This document shows positions 28,330-63,843 of a stretch of DNA of 64,000 nucleotides, one piece after another. The notes under the pieces were generated by a model. That model did not search any database and was not told the origin of the DNA. It worked only from the letters and a program-made list of their open reading frames with translations. The translations under genes and the position numbers were made by a program. The stretch is from an uncultured Anaerolineae bacterium (lineage in GTDB: Bacteria; Chloroflexota; Anaerolineae; Promineifilales; Promineifilaceae): positions 434,001 through 498,000 of the forward strand of contig CAJQMR010000007.1 in assembly GCA_905479495.1 (NCBI GenBank), written 5' to 3'. Position 1 is the first letter of the stretch. Every line of letters starts with the position of its first letter.

Positions 28330-28392
28330 GACTGGAGATTAGAGATTGGAGATTGGCTGCGACTAATCTCCAGTCTCCAGTCTCCAATCTCT
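28330..28392. repeat. Long inverted repeat of GGAGATT/GGAGACT units between convergent genes
   Basis: left arm 28330-28356 pairs with right arm 28363-28392; same family as 1084-1114. Confidence 0.75.
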
Positions 28393-29817
28393 GTTTCGCC
28401 TCAAGCCACGCGGATAATGGTTTTTCAGACGGCCGTTCACCCGCTTGCCCCAACCAAGAACAAAGCCATCCACCGCTACCAACAGCCAGCCATCTGGCCC
28501 TTTGCTAGGCAAATCCAATCCCTGCCAGTAGGCGGCAATCTCATCTGAATTGGCGGCGAAGGTGACGACATCAGCCGCATCTTCCGGGGTGAGTGCCAAA
28601 GCCAGGGCGTGATCGGGCCGGAAATACCCTTTACGAATCTCACCCAGCAGCAGGCCGTAACGAATCAGGTGCAGCTTGCCGGTTTCCAGGGCTAGTTCCG
28701 GCAGCAGGTAAAGACGGCCGTTTACCAACAACAATCTTTCCTCTGCAAAATCGGCCTGTAAAAATTCTCGGGCAAATAATTGCCAAATCGCTAAATCTTT
28801 TTTACCCGGCGGCGTAAACTCCATGGGTTTCCCAAACCCTTGGGGTTTTTCATCGCCCACATGCTGCATCACGGCAATAAAATGCCCTTCGCCGGGGAAT
28901 TGGTGTGGCCAGAGACGGACACATTTTTGCAACGTTTCATCGGCCAGCGAATCGTTTAGCCAAGACGGCCGTCCTCGCCCAAACCCGGCAAAGCGCGGCG
29001 GATCGATCAGTTCAAATTGGGGAAATTCGTGCAAAAAGTGGGCAATGACCGCCTCATCTTCCTCTGGGGCGAAGGTGCAGGTCGCATAGACAAGCCGCCC
29101 GCCTGATTTTACAAGCGTGGCGGCGGTGTGCAGAACGGCCGTTTGCCGCCGCGCACAAGCCAACACCATTTCCTCGCTCCATGCAAATGGCTCCTGCTTG
29201 CTCACGGACTGTTGTTTGCCCGCAAACTGCTGTTTGCGAAACATGCCCTCGCCAGAACAGGGTGCATCCACCAGCACCCGATCAAAAATCGGGCCAAACT
29301 GTGTGGCCAGATGCGTCGGCTCTGCACTGGTGATGAGTGTGTTGCGCGCGCCCCAACGGGTCATGTTTTCCGCCAGCAGCCGCGCGCGCCCGGTGTGGAT
29401 GTCGTTGGCGACCAGCAGGCCACGACCCTGCATTTGTGCTGCCAGATGGCTGGCTTTGCCGCCTGGTGCGGCCGCCAAATCCAGCACCAATTCACCTGGC
29501 TGGGCGGCCACCAGCCCGCCCACCACCATCGCCGATGGCTCCTGCAGATAGTACAATCCTGCCCCGTGGTAAGGATGACTGCCCGGCTTGCTGTCGTCTG
29601 TTACTAAAAATCCGGCTGGTTCATGTGCCCCCACCGCTTTCAGCGCAAACGGCGAAAGGGTGCTAAAATCGTTGGCGCTTACCTTCAGTGTATTCACCCG
29701 CAGCCCGATGGCTGGTGGTTCACTGTAGCTTTGCTCGAATTGGTTAAATTCATCTCCCAACAGCTCGGCCATTTTGGCCATAAAATCGGGTGGGAGAGCT
29801 TGTGAATTGGTTGACAT
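28363..29817 (-). CDS. RsmF/RsmB-like 16S rRNA m5C methyltransferase (NOL1/NOP2/sun family)
   Basis: LDLAAAPGGKASHLAAQMQGRGLLVANDIH, VDAPCSGEGMFRK, YATCTFAPEEDEAVI, C-terminal RsmF-type region. Confidence 0.92.
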   Translation of the reverse strand: MSTNSQALPPDFMAKMAELLGDEFNQFEQSYSEPPAIGLRVNTLKVSANDFSTLSPFALKAVGAHEPAGFLVTDDSKPGSHPYHGAGLYYLQEPSAMVVGGLVAAQPGELVLDLAAAPGGKASHLAAQMQGRGLLVANDIHTGRARLLAENMTRWGARNTLITSAEPTHLATQFGPIFDRVLVDAPCSGEGMFRKQQFAGKQQSVSKQEPFAWSEEMVLACARRQTAVLHTAATLVKSGGRLVYATCTFAPEEDEAVIAHFLHEFPQFELIDPPRFAGFGRGRPSWLNDSLADETLQKCVRLWPHQFPGEGHFIAVMQHVGDEKPQGFGKPMEFTPPGKKDLAIWQLFAREFLQADFAEERLLLVNGRLYLLPELALETGKLHLIRYGLLLGEIRKGYFRPDHALALALTPEDAADVVTFAANSDEIAAYWQGLDLPSKGPDGWLLVAVDGFVLGWGKRVNGRLKNHYPRGLRRNRDWRLETGD

Positions 29818-29828
29818 AAATTATCCGG

Positions 29829-30929
29829 ATGCTTTCTGAATTAAAATTGCCTCACGGCACGCTCCAACTTCCCATCTTTTTGCCCGATGGCACCCAAGGG
29901 GTGGTGCGTACGCTGGACGCCCGCGATGTGGAAGACGCGCACATTCAGGCCGTGCAGATGAATGCTTTCCATCTGATGCAGCGCCCTGGCTCCTCCACAA
30001 TTCAGGCGTTGGGTGGCTTGCATCGCATGGCAGGCTGGAACCGGCCTATCTTTACCGATTCCGGCGGCTTTCAAGTCTATTCACTTTTGCGCCAAAACGC
30101 GAAAAGCGGCTCGATTAGCGACAAGGGTGCAACGTTTCGTCCCGAAGGCTCTGATCGCAAATTTAACCTGACGCCCGAAAAGAGCGTTCAGCTTCAGCTT
30201 AGTTACGGCTCCGACGTGGTGATTTGTTTTGATGACTGCACCCATGTGGACGATCCGCTGGTGGAGCAGGAAAAATCGGTGGCGCGGACGGTGCAATGGG
30301 CGGCACGCTGCAAGGCGGAGTTTGAAAAGATTGTGGGGCAGCGAGAGTTGGCGGAAGGGGAACGGCCGTATCTCATTGCCGTCGTGCAAGGTGGTGCAGC
30401 GCTTCATTTGCGGCAGCAATGTGCGGAACAGCTGCTGGCGATTGGCTTTGATGGCTACGGCTACGGCGGTTGGCCATTGGACGCTGACAACAATCTACTG
30501 ACTGATGTTTTGGCTTACACACGAGAACTTATCCCCGACCAGTTCACCCTGCATGCCCTGGGCGTAGGCCATCCGGCCAACGTCGTGGTGAGCGCCCGGC
30601 TGGGCTACAATATTTTTGACAGCACCATGCCAACCAGAGATGCACGACACGGCCGTTTGATGATTTTCACCACCGACCCACGCAGCAGCCATCTGGATGA
30701 TGCCGGCCATTTTTTCCGCTACATCTACATCAAAGACAAAAAGCACGTCAAAACCAATTTGCCCCTCTCTGAATATTGCGACTGCTTCACCTGCACCCGC
30801 TACAGCCTAGGCTACCTGCACCACCTCTACAATATTAACGACGTGCTCTACCAGCGGCTGGCCACGCTGCACAATCTGCGCTTCATGACCCAACTGATGC
30901 AAAACTTGCGGGGGGAGAGGGGAAAATAG
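29829..30929 (+). CDS. tgt: tRNA-guanine/queuine transglycosylase family
   Basis: LPHGTLQLPIFLPDGTQGVVRTL, TDSGGFQVYSL, CDCFTCTRYSLGYLHHL zinc motif. Confidence 0.9.
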   Translation: MLSELKLPHGTLQLPIFLPDGTQGVVRTLDARDVEDAHIQAVQMNAFHLMQRPGSSTIQALGGLHRMAGWNRPIFTDSGGFQVYSLLRQNAKSGSISDKGATFRPEGSDRKFNLTPEKSVQLQLSYGSDVVICFDDCTHVDDPLVEQEKSVARTVQWAARCKAEFEKIVGQRELAEGERPYLIAVVQGGAALHLRQQCAEQLLAIGFDGYGYGGWPLDADNNLLTDVLAYTRELIPDQFTLHALGVGHPANVVVSARLGYNIFDSTMPTRDARHGRLMIFTTDPRSSHLDDAGHFFRYIYIKDKKHVKTNLPLSEYCDCFTCTRYSLGYLHHLYNINDVLYQRLATLHNLRFMTQLMQNLRGERGK

Positions 30930-31007: not shown

Positions 31008-31817
31008 ATGTCTGAAGAAATGCTTGAAACGTTGACAGAACAGGTTTTGCTGGGAGCCAAGTATCGAGAGATTGCCCCAGATTTAGTGCGGCGTATTGGG
31101 GCGCAGGAGCTGGAAAAGCGGCGCTCGCTTAAAGAGGCGGTGAAGGCCACCAAAAACAAGCTGCATCAGGTGGGCGGGGCGTACCAGCCAGGCCGAATCG
31201 ATTATGAAAAAGGGCTGGCGCTGCTGCGGGAAACGGCCGTTTCCTCCCCCGATCAGTTCCGCGCCGCCTGCAATAACCTGATGCAATCCCACGCTTCCAC
31301 CCGAGAGCGCTTGCCCATCCTCGACGACTTTTACCAGACCATTCTGGCTGATTTGCCGCCCGTGCATACTGTGCTGGATTTGGCTTGTGGGTTGAATCCG
31401 CTGGCCTATCCTTGGCTACCCTTACCACTAGATGTGCAGTACACGTCTGTAGACATCTATGGGGATATGCTCGCATTTATTCAGGGCTTTTTTGAGATTG
31501 CGGGCATAAACGGCCGTACCCAACAGCGCGACATTATCGGCAATCCGCCAACCGAACCCGCTGACCTCATTTTGTTGCTCAAAACGCTGCCTTGCCTGGA
31601 ACAGGTAGACAAAACGGCCGCGGCCAACCTGATTGAGGCGTTAAACGGCCGTTTTCTCCTCATCAGTTATCCAGCACAAAGTTTGGGCGGACGCAGCAAG
31701 GGGATGGTGGAAAATTACACTCGGCAGTTTGAAGAATTAGCAAACGGACGGAACTGGCGGGTACGGCCGTTTGAATTTGCCACAGAACTTGCCTTTTTAG
31801 TCACAACCGAGCCTTAA
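31008..31817 (+). CDS. ArmA/RmtB-like 16S rRNA (guanine-N7) methyltransferase homologue
   Basis: KLHQVGGAYQ, SHASTRERLPILDDFYQTI, VLDLACGLNPLA, ILLLKTLPCLEQVD, LISYPAQSLGGRSKGMVENY match recalled ArmA/Rmt family motifs in order. Confidence 0.85.
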   Translation: MSEEMLETLTEQVLLGAKYREIAPDLVRRIGAQELEKRRSLKEAVKATKNKLHQVGGAYQPGRIDYEKGLALLRETAVSSPDQFRAACNNLMQSHASTRERLPILDDFYQTILADLPPVHTVLDLACGLNPLAYPWLPLPLDVQYTSVDIYGDMLAFIQGFFEIAGINGRTQQRDIIGNPPTEPADLILLLKTLPCLEQVDKTAAANLIEALNGRFLLISYPAQSLGGRSKGMVENYTRQFEELANGRNWRVRPFEFATELAFLVTTEP

Positions 31818-32833
31818 ACCGGCCCCCAGCCTTCATTGATACAACCCGCATCTTCAGGGGAAAATCCTTCCGGCCAGATTGTATGTTCGTTGTAACGCGC
31901 TTCCGATAAATCCGTGCCATTCAAATTAGCGTCGGTTAGCTTGGCCCACCCCAAACGCGCCTGCTGCAAATTAGCATGGCGCAAATCTGCCTGCGAAAAA
32001 TCGACCCAGTTTAAATCTGCCCTGGCCAGATTCGCTTCGACGAGGTTGGCATTCTGCAAAACGGCTCCATTCAGGATCGCTTCTTCTAAATTTGCCTTCT
32101 CCAGATTTGAATCTGTCATGATTGAACCAATGAGATTGGCCTGAAACAAGTTCGCCCCTTGCATCTGGCTGTTGCTCAAGTCGGCCCATTCCAGATGCGA
32201 GGCGGCCATATTTGCCTCGGTTAAATGCGTGGCGCGAAGCTCCGCTCCTTGTAAATTCACCTGAGTCAGGTCGCTAAAAGATAAATCGGTATAGCTAAGA
32301 ACGGCATCTTCTAAAGGCACCTGATCGACTGTTGGATGATTGGCAAAACGCACCGCGATTTTTTGGGCCCAGGCGCGGATGGCTTCCCAATTACGATAAT
32401 CACCCTGAGGACCGTCGCCAACCATAATTGCCTGGCGTGCCGGGTCCAGCGCACCAGCAAAAAGCCCCAGACCAATGGGCTTAATGTCTGGCGCAATTTT
32501 CACCAGCAGCGGTTCCATATAGTTCAGCACGGTTTGTCGATTCTTTTTTGTGTCGTCCACCATTGTGAGGCACGTTGTAAAATAGGCAACGGGCCTTTCA
32601 CCCACTTCGGTTTTAATGCGTTCCAGGCAGTCAATGGCGTCCGGCAGCCAGCGCCCAATCCGAATAGAGCTGCCAATAACAACACCGCTGTATGAGGCAA
32701 TACTGTCCACCTCACTGACATTTTGCACAACGGTGCGCAGGCCTTCTTTTTCGATTTCAGCGGCAACGGCTTCAGCGACTTCACCCGTAGAACCACTACC
32801 GCTAGCGTAAGCGATTAAGATTTTTGTATCCAT
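31814..32833 (-). CDS. Flavodoxin-domain protein with C-terminal pentapeptide repeats
   Basis: N-terminal YASGSGSTGEVAEAVA flavodoxin FMN loop; C-terminal A(D/N)LxxAxL repeats. Confidence 0.88.
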   Translation of the reverse strand: MDTKILIAYASGSGSTGEVAEAVAAEIEKEGLRTVVQNVSEVDSIASYSGVVIGSSIRIGRWLPDAIDCLERIKTEVGERPVAYFTTCLTMVDDTKKNRQTVLNYMEPLLVKIAPDIKPIGLGLFAGALDPARQAIMVGDGPQGDYRNWEAIRAWAQKIAVRFANHPTVDQVPLEDAVLSYTDLSFSDLTQVNLQGAELRATHLTEANMAASHLEWADLSNSQMQGANLFQANLIGSIMTDSNLEKANLEEAILNGAVLQNANLVEANLARADLNWVDFSQADLRHANLQQARLGWAKLTDANLNGTDLSEARYNEHTIWPEGFSPEDAGCINEGWGPV

Positions 32834-35805: not shown

Positions 35806-35846
35806 TCGGTTACCGATGCCCGTTTACCGTTCACCGATTACCGAAT
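35794..35846. repeat. GTAATCGGTAACC/TACCGATTACC palindromic repeat
   Basis: ggtaatccgtaatcggttaccgat...accgttcaccgattacc; shared with loci at 56-84, 52560-52611, 53801-53836, 61388-61460. Confidence 0.75.
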
Positions 35847-37696
35847 TAGGGGGCTGTCATGGCACAGCGGAAGCCCAGATTGTCTCGCTTGACGGTGGGA
35901 TCGTATGAACTGCGGGTGACCACGCGCAAATCTTCGGCGGGCGAGAGCCAGGAGCCGCCGCGAATGGCTTTAAACTCACCTTCCGGTGGCCCTAGGGGAT
36001 TGGTATCTGTGCTGCTTTCATAGTAGCGGGGATCGTACCAATCACTGACCCACTCCATCACATTCCCCGCCATGTCGTACGCGCCAATGGGGGAACGGCC
36101 GTCAGCAAAACTGCCTACAGGCGCGGTGCTGCGATGGCCATCATCCACACTGCTGTCACGCACACCCAAGGTGCAATTCTCGTCGCAAAAATTGGCTTTT
36201 GTGCCGTCAAAGGCATCGCCCCACGGATAGCGCAAGACGATCGATTGATTGGGGTCAAAGGCCGCTGCCATCTCCCACTCTGCTTCAGACGGCAATCGTG
36301 CGTCACGCCAGTCGCAAAATGTCTCCGCATCATACCACGACACCTGAATCACTGGATAATCGTCATAGGCGGGATCACCATAGTAGGCTGGGTGAAAGGG
36401 GGCGGCATTGCTGCCCGGCGAGGCACAGGTGCCTGCTGTCACACATTGGGCATACTGCCCGTTGGTCACTTCCGTTTCATCGATGAAAAACGGGTCCATA
36501 CGCACCAGATGAGACGGCCGTTCATCGGCTTCACCTTCATCCGTGCCCATGCGGAACAAACCGCCGGGCATAAACACCATGCGCGCACCTGTGTCGGTGA
36601 TGAGCGGTTCTGGGCTGGGTGTGGGCGGCAAGGTAGGTGCGGGCAGCGGCGAAGGGGTGGGAGCAATCGACGTGAGCGCTGCCACAATGGCTGATTCCAA
36701 GGTAGCGGTGGCTTCGGCCTCGGCTGTCTCGTCATTCTTCCGCAAACCTGGCAATGTAAAAATGGTCCCGATGAGCAGCAGCACAACCAGCAGCACAACC
36801 AGCGCAATGATGGTGCGCTGTTCTATTTGCCGCCGGGTACGCGGCGATAGACGCGGCGGTGGTGGGCTGCCCAGCTGTCTAGACGGGCTGCGGCGTGGTT
36901 CGGTGGGAGGGGGCGCTGGCTGGCTGTTGGGTTTGGTCAGGGCGTTGGCAAAGGATTCGGCCGTATCGTACCGGGCATCGGCGCGTAAAGAGAGCGCTCG
37001 ATTGGCGACCAGCGAAAGATAAGGCGGTACGTCTGTGTTTATTTCACGCGCCGGAATCAAATCGGCCAGTCCGGTTTCGCGACTGAGCGCGTTAGGCGGT
37101 ACCTGATTGGTCAGCAGCGCATAGAGCGTTGCTCCCAAACTGTAGATGTCGCTGGCGGCGGAAACTTCCTGCTGGGCCTGCTGTTCTGGCGACCCATATC
37201 CCTGGTTGTGCAGAGGGACACCCATGCCTGGCAGTCCACTATCTACCAGAAAAACGGTGCCTTCTGGGGTCACGCGGATGTTGGCTGGTTTGATGTTGAG
37301 GTGGAACTGATTTTTGTTGTGTAAATAGGTAAGCGGCTGGCAAACAGCTTGCAGCCATTCAATGATACGTTCGTGAGGGAGACGGCCGTATTGATCCAAC
37401 AAGCTCTGCAAATCAATGCCGTCTATGTAATTGCTCACCAGATATTGTCCGTTTTGCTCAATGGCAAAATGGTCCAGCACGTCTGGTAGCTGCGGGTGTG
37501 AAAGATCGCTCAGGCGGCGGGCTTCCTGGCGGAACCGCTTTTGCATCTCGACTGAGCTGTCGAGATACTCCTTCACCGCCACATCGCGGTTATCCACCAC
37601 GTCGCGCGCCCGGTAGACGGCACCGTACTGCCCTTCGGCCAGCAAATTGATGATGCGATACCGTTTGTTGAGAAGCTCACCAGGAAATAATGGCAT
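35846..37696 (-). CDS. Ser/Thr kinase-like (predicted pseudokinase) + TM + FGE/SUMF1-like domain
   Basis: VAVKEYLD (Lys), FHLNIKPANIRV (HRD Asp replaced by Asn), VDSGLPG (DFG altered), TM, MVFMPGGLFRMGTDEGEADERP...NLGFRCAM. Confidence 0.88.
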   Translation of the reverse strand: MPLFPGELLNKRYRIINLLAEGQYGAVYRARDVVDNRDVAVKEYLDSSVEMQKRFRQEARRLSDLSHPQLPDVLDHFAIEQNGQYLVSNYIDGIDLQSLLDQYGRLPHERIIEWLQAVCQPLTYLHNKNQFHLNIKPANIRVTPEGTVFLVDSGLPGMGVPLHNQGYGSPEQQAQQEVSAASDIYSLGATLYALLTNQVPPNALSRETGLADLIPAREINTDVPPYLSLVANRALSLRADARYDTAESFANALTKPNSQPAPPPTEPRRSPSRQLGSPPPPRLSPRTRRQIEQRTIIALVVLLVVLLLIGTIFTLPGLRKNDETAEAEATATLESAIVAALTSIAPTPSPLPAPTLPPTPSPEPLITDTGARMVFMPGGLFRMGTDEGEADERPSHLVRMDPFFIDETEVTNGQYAQCVTAGTCASPGSNAAPFHPAYYGDPAYDDYPVIQVSWYDAETFCDWRDARLPSEAEWEMAAAFDPNQSIVLRYPWGDAFDGTKANFCDENCTLGVRDSSVDDGHRSTAPVGSFADGRSPIGAYDMAGNVMEWVSDWYDPRYYESSTDTNPLGPPEGEFKAIRGGSWLSPAEDLRVVTRSSYDPTVKRDNLGFRCAMTAP

Positions 37697-61460: not shown

Positions 61461-61470
61461 CAAAGAGTTG

Positions 61471-63843
61471 ATGCGCGATCCAGACCAATTCACCACAGTC
61501 TTGAACCAATTTGTCCAGCGCTCGGCGTACACGCCGGGGCAGCTGGCTAGCCTATCCAGCGTGCCGAAAATGACGATTGTGAATTGGCTTAACGGCCGTG
61601 TGGTGCGGCCTAGGGGATGGCAAGGCGTGGTGGCGCTGGCGGCGGCCATGCGTCTGACAGAAGCAGAAGCCAATCAGCTGCTGGCTGCGGCCCAACAGCC
61701 GACTGTTCAAGAATTGCGAACCCTGACAGCAGATACAAAGGATCAAGCGTTGTTGCGGTTTTGGCAAACGGCCATTTTCTCCGAATTCTCCCCACCTTTC
61801 CAGACCATCGCCCTGCCGCCATACCTGGTGGGTCGGGAGGAAGAGCGGGCGCTTTTGCGAACTTACTTGATGGCCAAACGGCAAACGGCCGTAATCTGCC
61901 TGCATGGCATGGCGGGCGTTGGCAAAACCAGCCTGGCGGCACAGCTGGCCTATGATTTGCAGGATCATTTTGCTGATGGTGTGCTGTGGGCCCGACTGGA
62001 CAGCTCCGACACGCTCTCCATTTTGGCCACGTTTGCCGCTGCTTACCAGCAAGACGTCAGCCAATTTTATGACGTGGCCAGCCGCAGCCGGGTGGTGCGC
62101 GATCTGCTGCGAGGCAAACAAGCACTCATTATTTTGGACAATGCCCAGACGAGCGCCCAGATTGAACCGCTGCTGCCACCCACCGGGAACTGTGCCGTGC
62201 TGGTGACCACACGGCGGCAAGATTTGTCTGTTCTGGCCGGGGCGCAGCGGGTTGCGTTACGGCCGTTTCCCTCCGAAGCCACCACCTCGCTCAGCCTGTT
62301 TGAACAAATATTAGGCCGTGCCCGCGTACAGGCCGAGCCAGATGCCCTGCGCCAAATTGCCGATGCATTGGGCCATTTGCCCCTGGCGCTGGTCATCGCT
62401 GCCAGCCGATTGGCGTACGAGCCGGGCTGGCAGATTGCCCAGTTTCAGCAGCGACTGGCGCAGGTGGAGCAGCGGCTGCCTGCGCTGCGCTACGAGGTGC
62501 AAAATGTGCGGCGCTCGTTTCAGCTGAGCTATGAACTGCTGGACGCGCCCGCGCAGCAGCTTTTTGCCGCCATCGGGCTGCTGGGGCGGCAAGATTTTTC
62601 GGTGGCAGCGGCGGCAGCCCTGGTGGCTGGTGACGCAGATGCTGTGGCGGATGGCTTGCGGCAGCTTTACACGCTTTCTTTGTTGCAGGGTAGGACGAAC
62701 GGCCGTTACCAGCTGCATCCCCTGCTGCACGATTTTGCTCAAAGCTTGCCCGCGCCGGACAGTGCGACGGACCGATTTGTGGCCTATTGGGCGGCGTTTG
62801 TGGCTGAGCATCGGTTGGCTTATGGAATGGTGGCAAAGGAGATTGGGCATATTGGGGCGGCGTTGGAAACGGCCGTGCGCGAGCGGTGGCTGCGGCCGTG
62901 GCTCAACCTTCTGGAAAACCTGATGCCATTCTGGCTGGTGCGCGGGGCTTATCTTCAAGCTGAACAATGTCTGGCTGAAGCGCAAACGGTGTTGCAATCA
63001 TTTGGTGACGATGTTGGGCTTAGCCACGTGCAATTGTGGTGGGGCCAGTTGCTGCGCCAGCGGCAGGAATTGGCCGCTGCTGAAGAATATTTGCAGGCGG
63101 GCTTGCAGCTGGCCCAAAAACAGGGGGACAAGAGGCAAATCGGCCGTTTTCTGGCTGAGATTGGCATTGTTCACAATTGTCACGAGCAGTATGCTTCGGC
63201 CAAAGTATATTTGGCTGAGGCGTTAACTCTGGCCCGGCAGGTGGATGATGTAGATTGTTTGCTGCTGTTGTTGGAGGAATTGGGCGTTTTGGCTTTGATG
63301 GAAGGGGAAACGGCCGTTGCCCGGCAGTATCAACAAGAAGGGTTCGATCTGGCGCAGGTTCACAAGCATGAGGCGCAGGCGGTGCTGTTCCGCAAAAGTT
63401 TGGGCGCGTTAAGCCATTTGGCGCAGGACCGGGAGAAAGCGCGGCAGCAGTTTGCCCAGGGATATGCCTTGGCGCAAAAGATAGGTTTTCGCAAAGGCAT
63501 GATGCTGCTAAGTAACAATTTGGGCGTGGTTGATTTTTATGCGGGGAACATGGCGCAGGCGGCAGATTATTTGCAGGCTTCCCTGGCTGAGGCTGAGCGG
63601 CTGAACGATTTTCAGGCGCTCAGCCTGGTGCTGCAAAATTTGGCGCGCCTGGCTCGGCAGAACGGCCGTTTTGCTGCCGCACGGTCTTACTTCAATCAGC
63701 TGCTGGCCTTGGCCAAACGCCGTGAATGGCCTGAGGTGGTGGCTCAGGTGCAGCATGCGTTGTTGTCTTTGGCGGAGTTGGAAGAGGCAAACGGCCGTAA
63801 TCAGGCCAAAGCTGGGCAAGAACATCTCAGAGTATTTATTTAA
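61471..63843 (+). CDS. HTH (XRE-like) + NB-ARC (STAND) + TPR protein
   Basis: LASLSSVPKMTIVNWLNGRVVRPRGW HTH-like, HGMAGVGKTSLAAQLA P-loop, ALIILDNAQ Walker B, GHLPLALVIAASRL, C-terminal TPRs. Confidence 0.9.
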   Translation: MRDPDQFTTVLNQFVQRSAYTPGQLASLSSVPKMTIVNWLNGRVVRPRGWQGVVALAAAMRLTEAEANQLLAAAQQPTVQELRTLTADTKDQALLRFWQTAIFSEFSPPFQTIALPPYLVGREEERALLRTYLMAKRQTAVICLHGMAGVGKTSLAAQLAYDLQDHFADGVLWARLDSSDTLSILATFAAAYQQDVSQFYDVASRSRVVRDLLRGKQALIILDNAQTSAQIEPLLPPTGNCAVLVTTRRQDLSVLAGAQRVALRPFPSEATTSLSLFEQILGRARVQAEPDALRQIADALGHLPLALVIAASRLAYEPGWQIAQFQQRLAQVEQRLPALRYEVQNVRRSFQLSYELLDAPAQQLFAAIGLLGRQDFSVAAAAALVAGDADAVADGLRQLYTLSLLQGRTNGRYQLHPLLHDFAQSLPAPDSATDRFVAYWAAFVAEHRLAYGMVAKEIGHIGAALETAVRERWLRPWLNLLENLMPFWLVRGAYLQAEQCLAEAQTVLQSFGDDVGLSHVQLWWGQLLRQRQELAAAEEYLQAGLQLAQKQGDKRQIGRFLAEIGIVHNCHEQYASAKVYLAEALTLARQVDDVDCLLLLLEELGVLALMEGETAVARQYQQEGFDLAQVHKHEAQAVLFRKSLGALSHLAQDREKARQQFAQGYALAQKIGFRKGMMLLSNNLGVVDFYAGNMAQAADYLQASLAEAERLNDFQALSLVLQNLARLARQNGRFAAARSYFNQLLALAKRREWPEVVAQVQHALLSLAELEEANGRNQAKAGQEHLRVFI

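Follow-up and report, generated by a model that had tools for sequence, protein, structure and literature searches.

Methyltransferases that form m7G at position 1405 of 16S rRNA are familiar both as a means of producer self-protection and as hospital resistance genes. Described members include the actinomycete enzymes FmrO, GrmA, KgmB and Sgm (PF07091), of which Sgm is a producer's resistance gene, and the acquired m7G1405 methyltransferases ArmA and RmtA-H. The 16S rRNA m5C methyltransferase RsmF (YebU) acts at C1407, neighbouring G1405, and Sgm, RmtC and ArmA interfere with adjacent native modifications (PMC12406665). A different kind of RNA-modifying enzyme is the bacterial tRNA-guanine transglycosylase (Tgt) of the queuosine pathway. 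In Tgt of Zymomonas mobilis, a flip of the Leu231/Ala232 peptide discriminates guanine from preQ1; Glu235 stabilises the peptide in both orientations, and it is the amide of Ala232 that lies opposite guanine N7 (PMC3660597).

The locus described here lies in a 64-kb window (the whole stretch of DNA that was analysed) and brings homologues of all three enzymes together. Its genes, and one neighbour, are as follows.

28363..29817, minus strand: RsmF-type 16S rRNA m5C methyltransferase (Thermus-type), divergent from TGT2 (PF01189, PF17125, PF13636, PF17126)
29829..30929, plus strand: TGT2, divergent second protein of the tRNA-guanine-transglycosylase family (366 aa; PF01702, 316 bits), separated by 78 bp from FmrO1 downstream
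31008..31817, plus strand: FmrO1, FmrO/Rmt-family SAM-dependent 16S rRNA methyltransferase homologue of 269 aa, predicted to form m7G1405
31814..32833, minus strand: fusion of a flavodoxin domain with pentapeptide repeats, convergent with FmrO1; a neighbour outside the module

FmrO1 belongs to the aminoglycoside resistance methyltransferase family

The FmrO1 reading frame has an ATG start and 269 codons, and five family landmarks follow one another in the claimed order: KLHQVGGAY (residues 51-59), HASTRERLPILDDFY (95-109), VLDLACGLNPLA (122-133), LLLKTLPCLEQ (189-199) and SYPAQSLGGRSKGMVENY (220-237). The Pfam model FmrO (PF07091) matched residues 17-261 at 202.8 bits (cut-off 27; E 8e-60), and a PDB search returned Sgm as the top match (3lcu/3lcv, E 2.7e-52), with Rmt enzymes next. 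All of the family-invariant residues H53, H95, S97, E100, R101, D124, D149, K192, P195, G232, M233, Y237 and E260 are found in FmrO1, and the invariant residues, which make up the SAM motif and the target loop, are kept in at least 90% of 116 FmrO1 sequences. The target loop residues G232, M233 and Y237 are common to Sgm and the clinical Rmt enzymes. The Pfam match, the PDB match and the invariant residues bear out the membership in the ArmA/Rmt/Sgm family that the first-pass annotation had proposed. Judged by its sequence, FmrO1 is thus a member of the enzyme family that gives hospital bacteria their aminoglycoside resistance: it shares fold family, full-length alignment, invariant residues and target loop with Sgm and the actinomycete FmrO, GrmA and KgmB, and family and invariant residues with ArmA and RmtA-H. 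The close parallel to ArmA and RmtB that had also been claimed did not hold, with an identity of only 27-33% (28-34% across plasmid-borne RmtB, RmtC, RmtF, RmtG and ArmA) and a score of 221 bits against the generic NCBIfam Rmt model, which is under its cut-off of 250.

The presumed target nucleotide is available, since the genome's own partial 16S sequence and 19 others all contain CCGCCCGTCAC and hence G1405. Between genomes with and without FmrO, the helix-44 positions 1400-1409 showed no sequence difference (20 16S sequences). We consider it likely that FmrO1 methylates G1405. Family membership alone leaves the target nucleotide unfixed, and the link with a TGT could also point to a tRNA substrate for FmrO1.

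The window FmrO1 lies in a separate Chloroflexota clade

In a 97-row tree, 62 FmrO1 sequences fell into one clade (SH-aLRT 99) that was separate from Sgm, ArmA, RmtB/C/E/F/G, seven divergent FmrO1 sequences, and FmrO2, a second FmrO paralogue that itself forms a single clade with a support of 100. At least three of the seven divergent FmrO1 sequences come from loci in which FmrO precedes TGT2 (L158, L160 and L165; also L245, from the same genome as L128). A careful 52-row tree concurred on the FmrO1 clade (94/90) and placed Sgm, the sole actinomycete sequence, next to four divergent Chloroflexota FmrO1 sequences (97/90); ArmA, RmtC and RmtE have long branches in these trees. A single clade of the window gene and all seven resistance enzymes was rejected (AU p 0.0038), and one of Sgm and the clinical enzymes was not (AU p 0.27). 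The first-pass annotation had taken a position outside the Arm/Rmt/Kgm clade as grounds against its own proposal, and by this AU value that is where the window gene lies, in a Chloroflexota clade. Its suggestion of an ancestral reservoir of clinical genes is not supported, given the same separation. As a source or close kin of ArmA or RmtB the window gene is ruled out by both identity and the AU test.

TGT2 is a second TGT with an altered base-switch loop

The upstream neighbour had been called tgt, which is correct as to the family and incorrect as to the housekeeping gene. Besides TGT2 (PF01702, 316 bits) the genome contains one other TGT gene, which is canonical and lies at C8:169764-170819 (529 bits); at 303.1 bits, TGT2 falls short of the 306.75 cut-off of the NCBIfam Tgt equivalog. 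Because the canonical copy lies elsewhere and the base-switch loop is changed, we rejected 29829-30929 as the canonical housekeeping tgt.

For a residue comparison, 89 TGT2 sequences were set against eight canonical TGTs of the same phylum, using Zymomonas numbering. All or nearly all TGT2 proteins keep the nucleophile Asp280, Asp156, Gln203, Gly229/230, Arg286/289 and the zinc ligands, and the TGT RNA-contact motif PTRxARHG is retained. TGT2 therefore resembles bacterial Tgt in its catalytic Asp, its D156/Q203/G230 base contacts and its zinc site, but it is a paralogue that exists beside canonical Tgt and differs in the loop at positions 231-235. Here the canonical enzymes have Leu231-Ala/Ser232-Val233-Gly234-Glu235, whereas TGT2 has Trp (87/89), Pro (89/89), Leu (82/89), Asp (85/89) and then, at 235, a variable residue whose commonest choices do not include Glu (LAVGE to WPLDx; in the window gene, GGLAVGE to GGWPLD). 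Since a proline at 232 has no amide NH, we infer that TGT2 is barred from the normal guanine/preQ1 switch. It would then be catalytically competent and switch-locked, a transglycosylase with an altered base pocket that works on another base or leaving group.

TGT2 further differs from bacterial Tgt in occurring only where FmrO is present, and in being found in genomes that lack QueA. Its retention in QueA-less Chloroflexus/Roseiflexus-like genomes means that it is not simply a component of queuosine synthesis. In four genomes of this kind (G308, G421, G382 and G352) canonical TGT is present and QueA absent, as expected of queuine salvage rather than queuosine synthesis. The window's own genome has, besides canonical QueA, a second and divergent QueA (257 bits) at G000:C12:30304-31344, as do some Ktedonobacteria-like genomes; it was rejected as a partner of TGT2 because its presence is uncorrelated. 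No QueF above cut-off was found in the window's own genome. In G037, G050, G501 and G188, TGT2 has an in-frame stop or a split frame, from decay or sequencing error.

TGT2 is found only together with FmrO

The most interesting result of this analysis is the dependence of TGT2 on FmrO. TGT2 was identified with a profile built from 30 sequences, which separated TGT2 (at least 360 bits) from canonical TGT (about 318 bits and below); the TGT2 of G188 is a partial match that was assigned by position. In a sample of 400 Chloroflexota genomes, FmrO was present in 77 and TGT2 in 70, and every one of the 70 TGT2 genomes had FmrO. The same was true of 198 relatives, a sample that partly overlaps the first (TGT2 in 47, FmrO in 47/47 of these). 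Within the window's own family (52 genomes), 28 genomes had both genes, 17 neither, seven only FmrO and none only TGT2. Canonical TGT was present in 30/30 genomes checked, and those without FmrO held canonical TGT only. Fisher tests gave p values of 1e-70 and 6e-34, uncorrected for phylogeny; an RpoB tree of 29 genomes offered only 4-6 independent contrasts, none of them contrary to the association (p > 0.1).

The dependence is not reciprocal. Seven genomes of the phylum sample appeared to have FmrO only, of which two are cut off by contig ends, and G245 and G480 proved to be false cases in which TGT2 was found on inspection. Real cases in complete or near-complete genomes include G121 and the single-contig G362, with G168 among the relatives, and FmrO1 therefore does not need TGT2. 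The patchy distribution of the module likewise means that it is not essential phylum-wide.

The two genes are also close neighbours. Of the 70 pairs, 57 adjoin on the same strand, with TGT2 first in 48 and FmrO first in nine. Loci with TGT2 ahead of FmrO number 103, and in 68 of them the two reading frames overlap; the median gap is -4 nt. A few of these loci represent one genome from two collections. The TGT2 and FmrO trees mirror one another (mirror-tree r 0.69, 0/500 permutations). The pair is maintained even where its genes are not neighbours, whether on different contigs or at a distance of 319 kb (G026), and it was seen across Anaerolineae, Ktedonobacteria and Chloroflexus/Roseiflexus-like genomes. 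A literature search, with most subscription journals outside its reach, found no report of an FmrO-TGT linkage or of Rmt/FmrO in Chloroflexota.

RsmF and a second FmrO often join the pair

Among 80 loci from named genomes, TGT2 precedes FmrO in the same orientation in 69, in 66 of them within 600 bp. An RsmF-type gene was present in 23 of the 80 loci. It either stands divergent beside TGT2, the arrangement of the window, and is then Thermus-type, or lies downstream of FmrO2, where its best model is E. coli RsmF; in G026 RsmF still adjoins TGT2 although FmrO has moved away. The window gene at 28363-29817 carries RsmB/F catalytic, RsmF N-terminal and PUA-like domains (Pfam); its best NCBIfam model, the Thermus RsmF NF041567, gave 395 bits, below the cut-off of 690. 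RsmF/YebU is an already known enzyme outside the FmrO family that modifies the same helix-44 region, and the association of two RsmF lineages with the module, in two arrangements, points to helix 44 of 16S rRNA.

FmrO2 was found in 22 of the 80 loci, in tandem with FmrO1 in all but one. Its SAM motif is intact and Pro195, Leu197, Gly232 and Met233 are changed; with these target-loop changes, FmrO2 probably has a different target or a regulatory role. The tandem is often followed by RsmF (in about 20 loci FmrO2 stands in tandem with FmrO1). In the window's genome, FmrO2 lies on another contig than FmrO1:

L150 9864-10670, minus strand (G000:C15:62902-63669): FmrO2

A probable decoding-site module as the best explanation

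The reading that we favour, with a probability of roughly 0.6, is that of an intrinsic, probably housekeeping module of the decoding site, in which FmrO1 would form m7G (likeliest at G1405) and TGT2 would perform a linked base exchange. Of the options offered by the first-pass annotation, a housekeeping rRNA modification fits best. An old chromosomal gene that is nearly always paired with TGT2 looks like one half of an undescribed RNA-modification pair and not like acquired resistance. FmrO1 would methylate a decoding-site guanine in helix 44, most likely G1405 at N7, and with the paralogous TGT2 would make up the two halves of a Chloroflexota RNA-modification module, often joined by RsmF (m5C1404/1407-type) and the diverged FmrO paralogue. 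TGT2, its pocket locked against the guanine/preQ1 switch, would exchange a base in an RNA whose maturation depends on, or coincides with, FmrO. The module would serve intrinsic ribosome or decoding maturation, with a side effect in the form of insensitivity to 4,6-disubstituted deoxystreptamine aminoglycosides. The data establish the family and the intact residues of FmrO1, what TGT2 is, and that the two genes co-occur and adjoin; catalysis, G1405 as the target, the base and RNA on which TGT2 acts and the role in the cell are predictions. A resident, TGT-coupled enzyme of the m7G1405 type suggests a non-resistance function for the family and supplies a testable partner gene. Environmental metagenome annotations that label genes of this kind as resistance determinants would then overstate risk.

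Alternatively, FmrO1 may have been retargeted, so that it acts with TGT2 on one tRNA (for example at an anticodon-loop G) and not on 16S rRNA. The TGT RNA-contact motif in TGT2 and the strict dependence of TGT2 on FmrO both speak for such a shared tRNA; however, FmrO1 has the Sgm/Rmt target loop that FmrO2 has lost, and the RsmF genes that cluster with the pair favour helix 44, which together make this explanation unlikely.

Somewhat less probable still is that m7G1405 is made to block aminoglycosides, as intrinsic resistance or self-protection, and that the TGT neighbour is incidental. This would agree with the intact invariant residues and with Sgm, a producer's resistance gene, as the nearest solved homologue. 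Unlike Sgm, FmrO1 is chromosomal phylum-wide, tied to TGT2 and separate in the tree, and unlike ArmA and RmtA-H it lies outside their clade, has no mobile element and scores below the NCBIfam Rmt cut-off. A resistance gene needs no transglycosylase companion, yet FmrO occurs with TGT2 in Anaerolineae, Ktedonobacteria and Chloroflexus/Roseiflexus-like genomes alike, and the 40 window ORFs that were scanned contain no aminoglycoside-biosynthesis domain or mobile element.

Doubtful to a slightly greater degree is an extended version of the favoured module, in which TGT2 exchanges a base in rRNA (or the m7G made by FmrO) in a two-enzyme write-and-swap process at the decoding site, and the actinomycete resistance methyltransferases descend from the module. 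The descent is suggested by the position of Sgm, as a single sequence, beside divergent and mostly FmrO-then-TGT2 Chloroflexota sequences (97/90). Should the target of TGT2 be rRNA, this would to our knowledge be the first base exchange known in rRNA.

We regard as quite improbable that TGT2 uses the FmrO product as such, excising m7G and putting another base in its place, so that a single site would first receive m7G from FmrO and then have it swapped or erased by TGT2. As a base m7G leaves readily, and the idea would explain the asymmetry by which TGT2 never occurs without FmrO and FmrO sometimes occurs without TGT2. Pro232 leaves guanine N7 without the NH opposite it (PMC3660597), which suits a cationic or donor group there, but preQ1 or queuine would fit this pocket argument equally. 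Moreover, known TGT sites are UGU in tRNA loops, whereas G1405 is in a helix and in the context CGU. Mere co-inheritance of TGT2 and FmrO in one conserved neighbourhood, with no common function, is very improbable: some double losses may be single deletions and the independent contrasts on the RpoB tree are few, but both gene orders exist, the pair survives separation, and neither sample contained a TGT2-only genome.

Window context and an iterated palindrome

Returning to the preferred decoding-site module, its wider surroundings were also inspected. The claim that FmrO1 is chromosomal, non-mobile and long resident is supported, with no transposase among the 40 window ORFs scanned. Their other content comprises a polysaccharide cluster, signalling proteins and transporters. 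The cluster (3690-24603, minus strand) encodes Wzy, Bac_transf, glycosyltransferases, epimerases and Wzz, and also holds a sulfatase and a PAPS-reductase-domain protein. A Ser/Thr protein kinase fused to an FGE-sulfatase (SUMF1-like) domain is found at 35846-37696 (minus strand), and an NB-ARC plus TPR protein at 61468-63843 (plus strand). The flavodoxin-pentapeptide fusion adjoins FmrO1 also in the close relatives L023 and L039. A phage or defence origin was rejected: PHROG gave no match, and PADLOC returned only 17.7-bit cross-matches to DpdA and mads_2, besides a match of RsmF to a methylase model (62.7 bits).

The four copies of ACGGCCGT to which the first-pass annotation drew attention in the FmrO1 gene are located as it said, at offsets 225, 502, 637 and 755, which cover all three codon phases. 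The window contains 95 instances of this word where 0.8 would be expected, and the 7.28-Mb genome 11,512, compared with 99 of the reversed word that served as control. Being abundant genome-wide and present in all three phases, ACGGCCGT is uninformative on the FmrO1 gene or its residence time, and the copies do not stand as evidence on the gene. A literature search found no paper linking such iterated palindromes to Chloroflexota. As a highly iterated palindrome, ACGGCCGT resembles the cyanobacterial HIP1 (GCGATCGC), from which the word itself differs.
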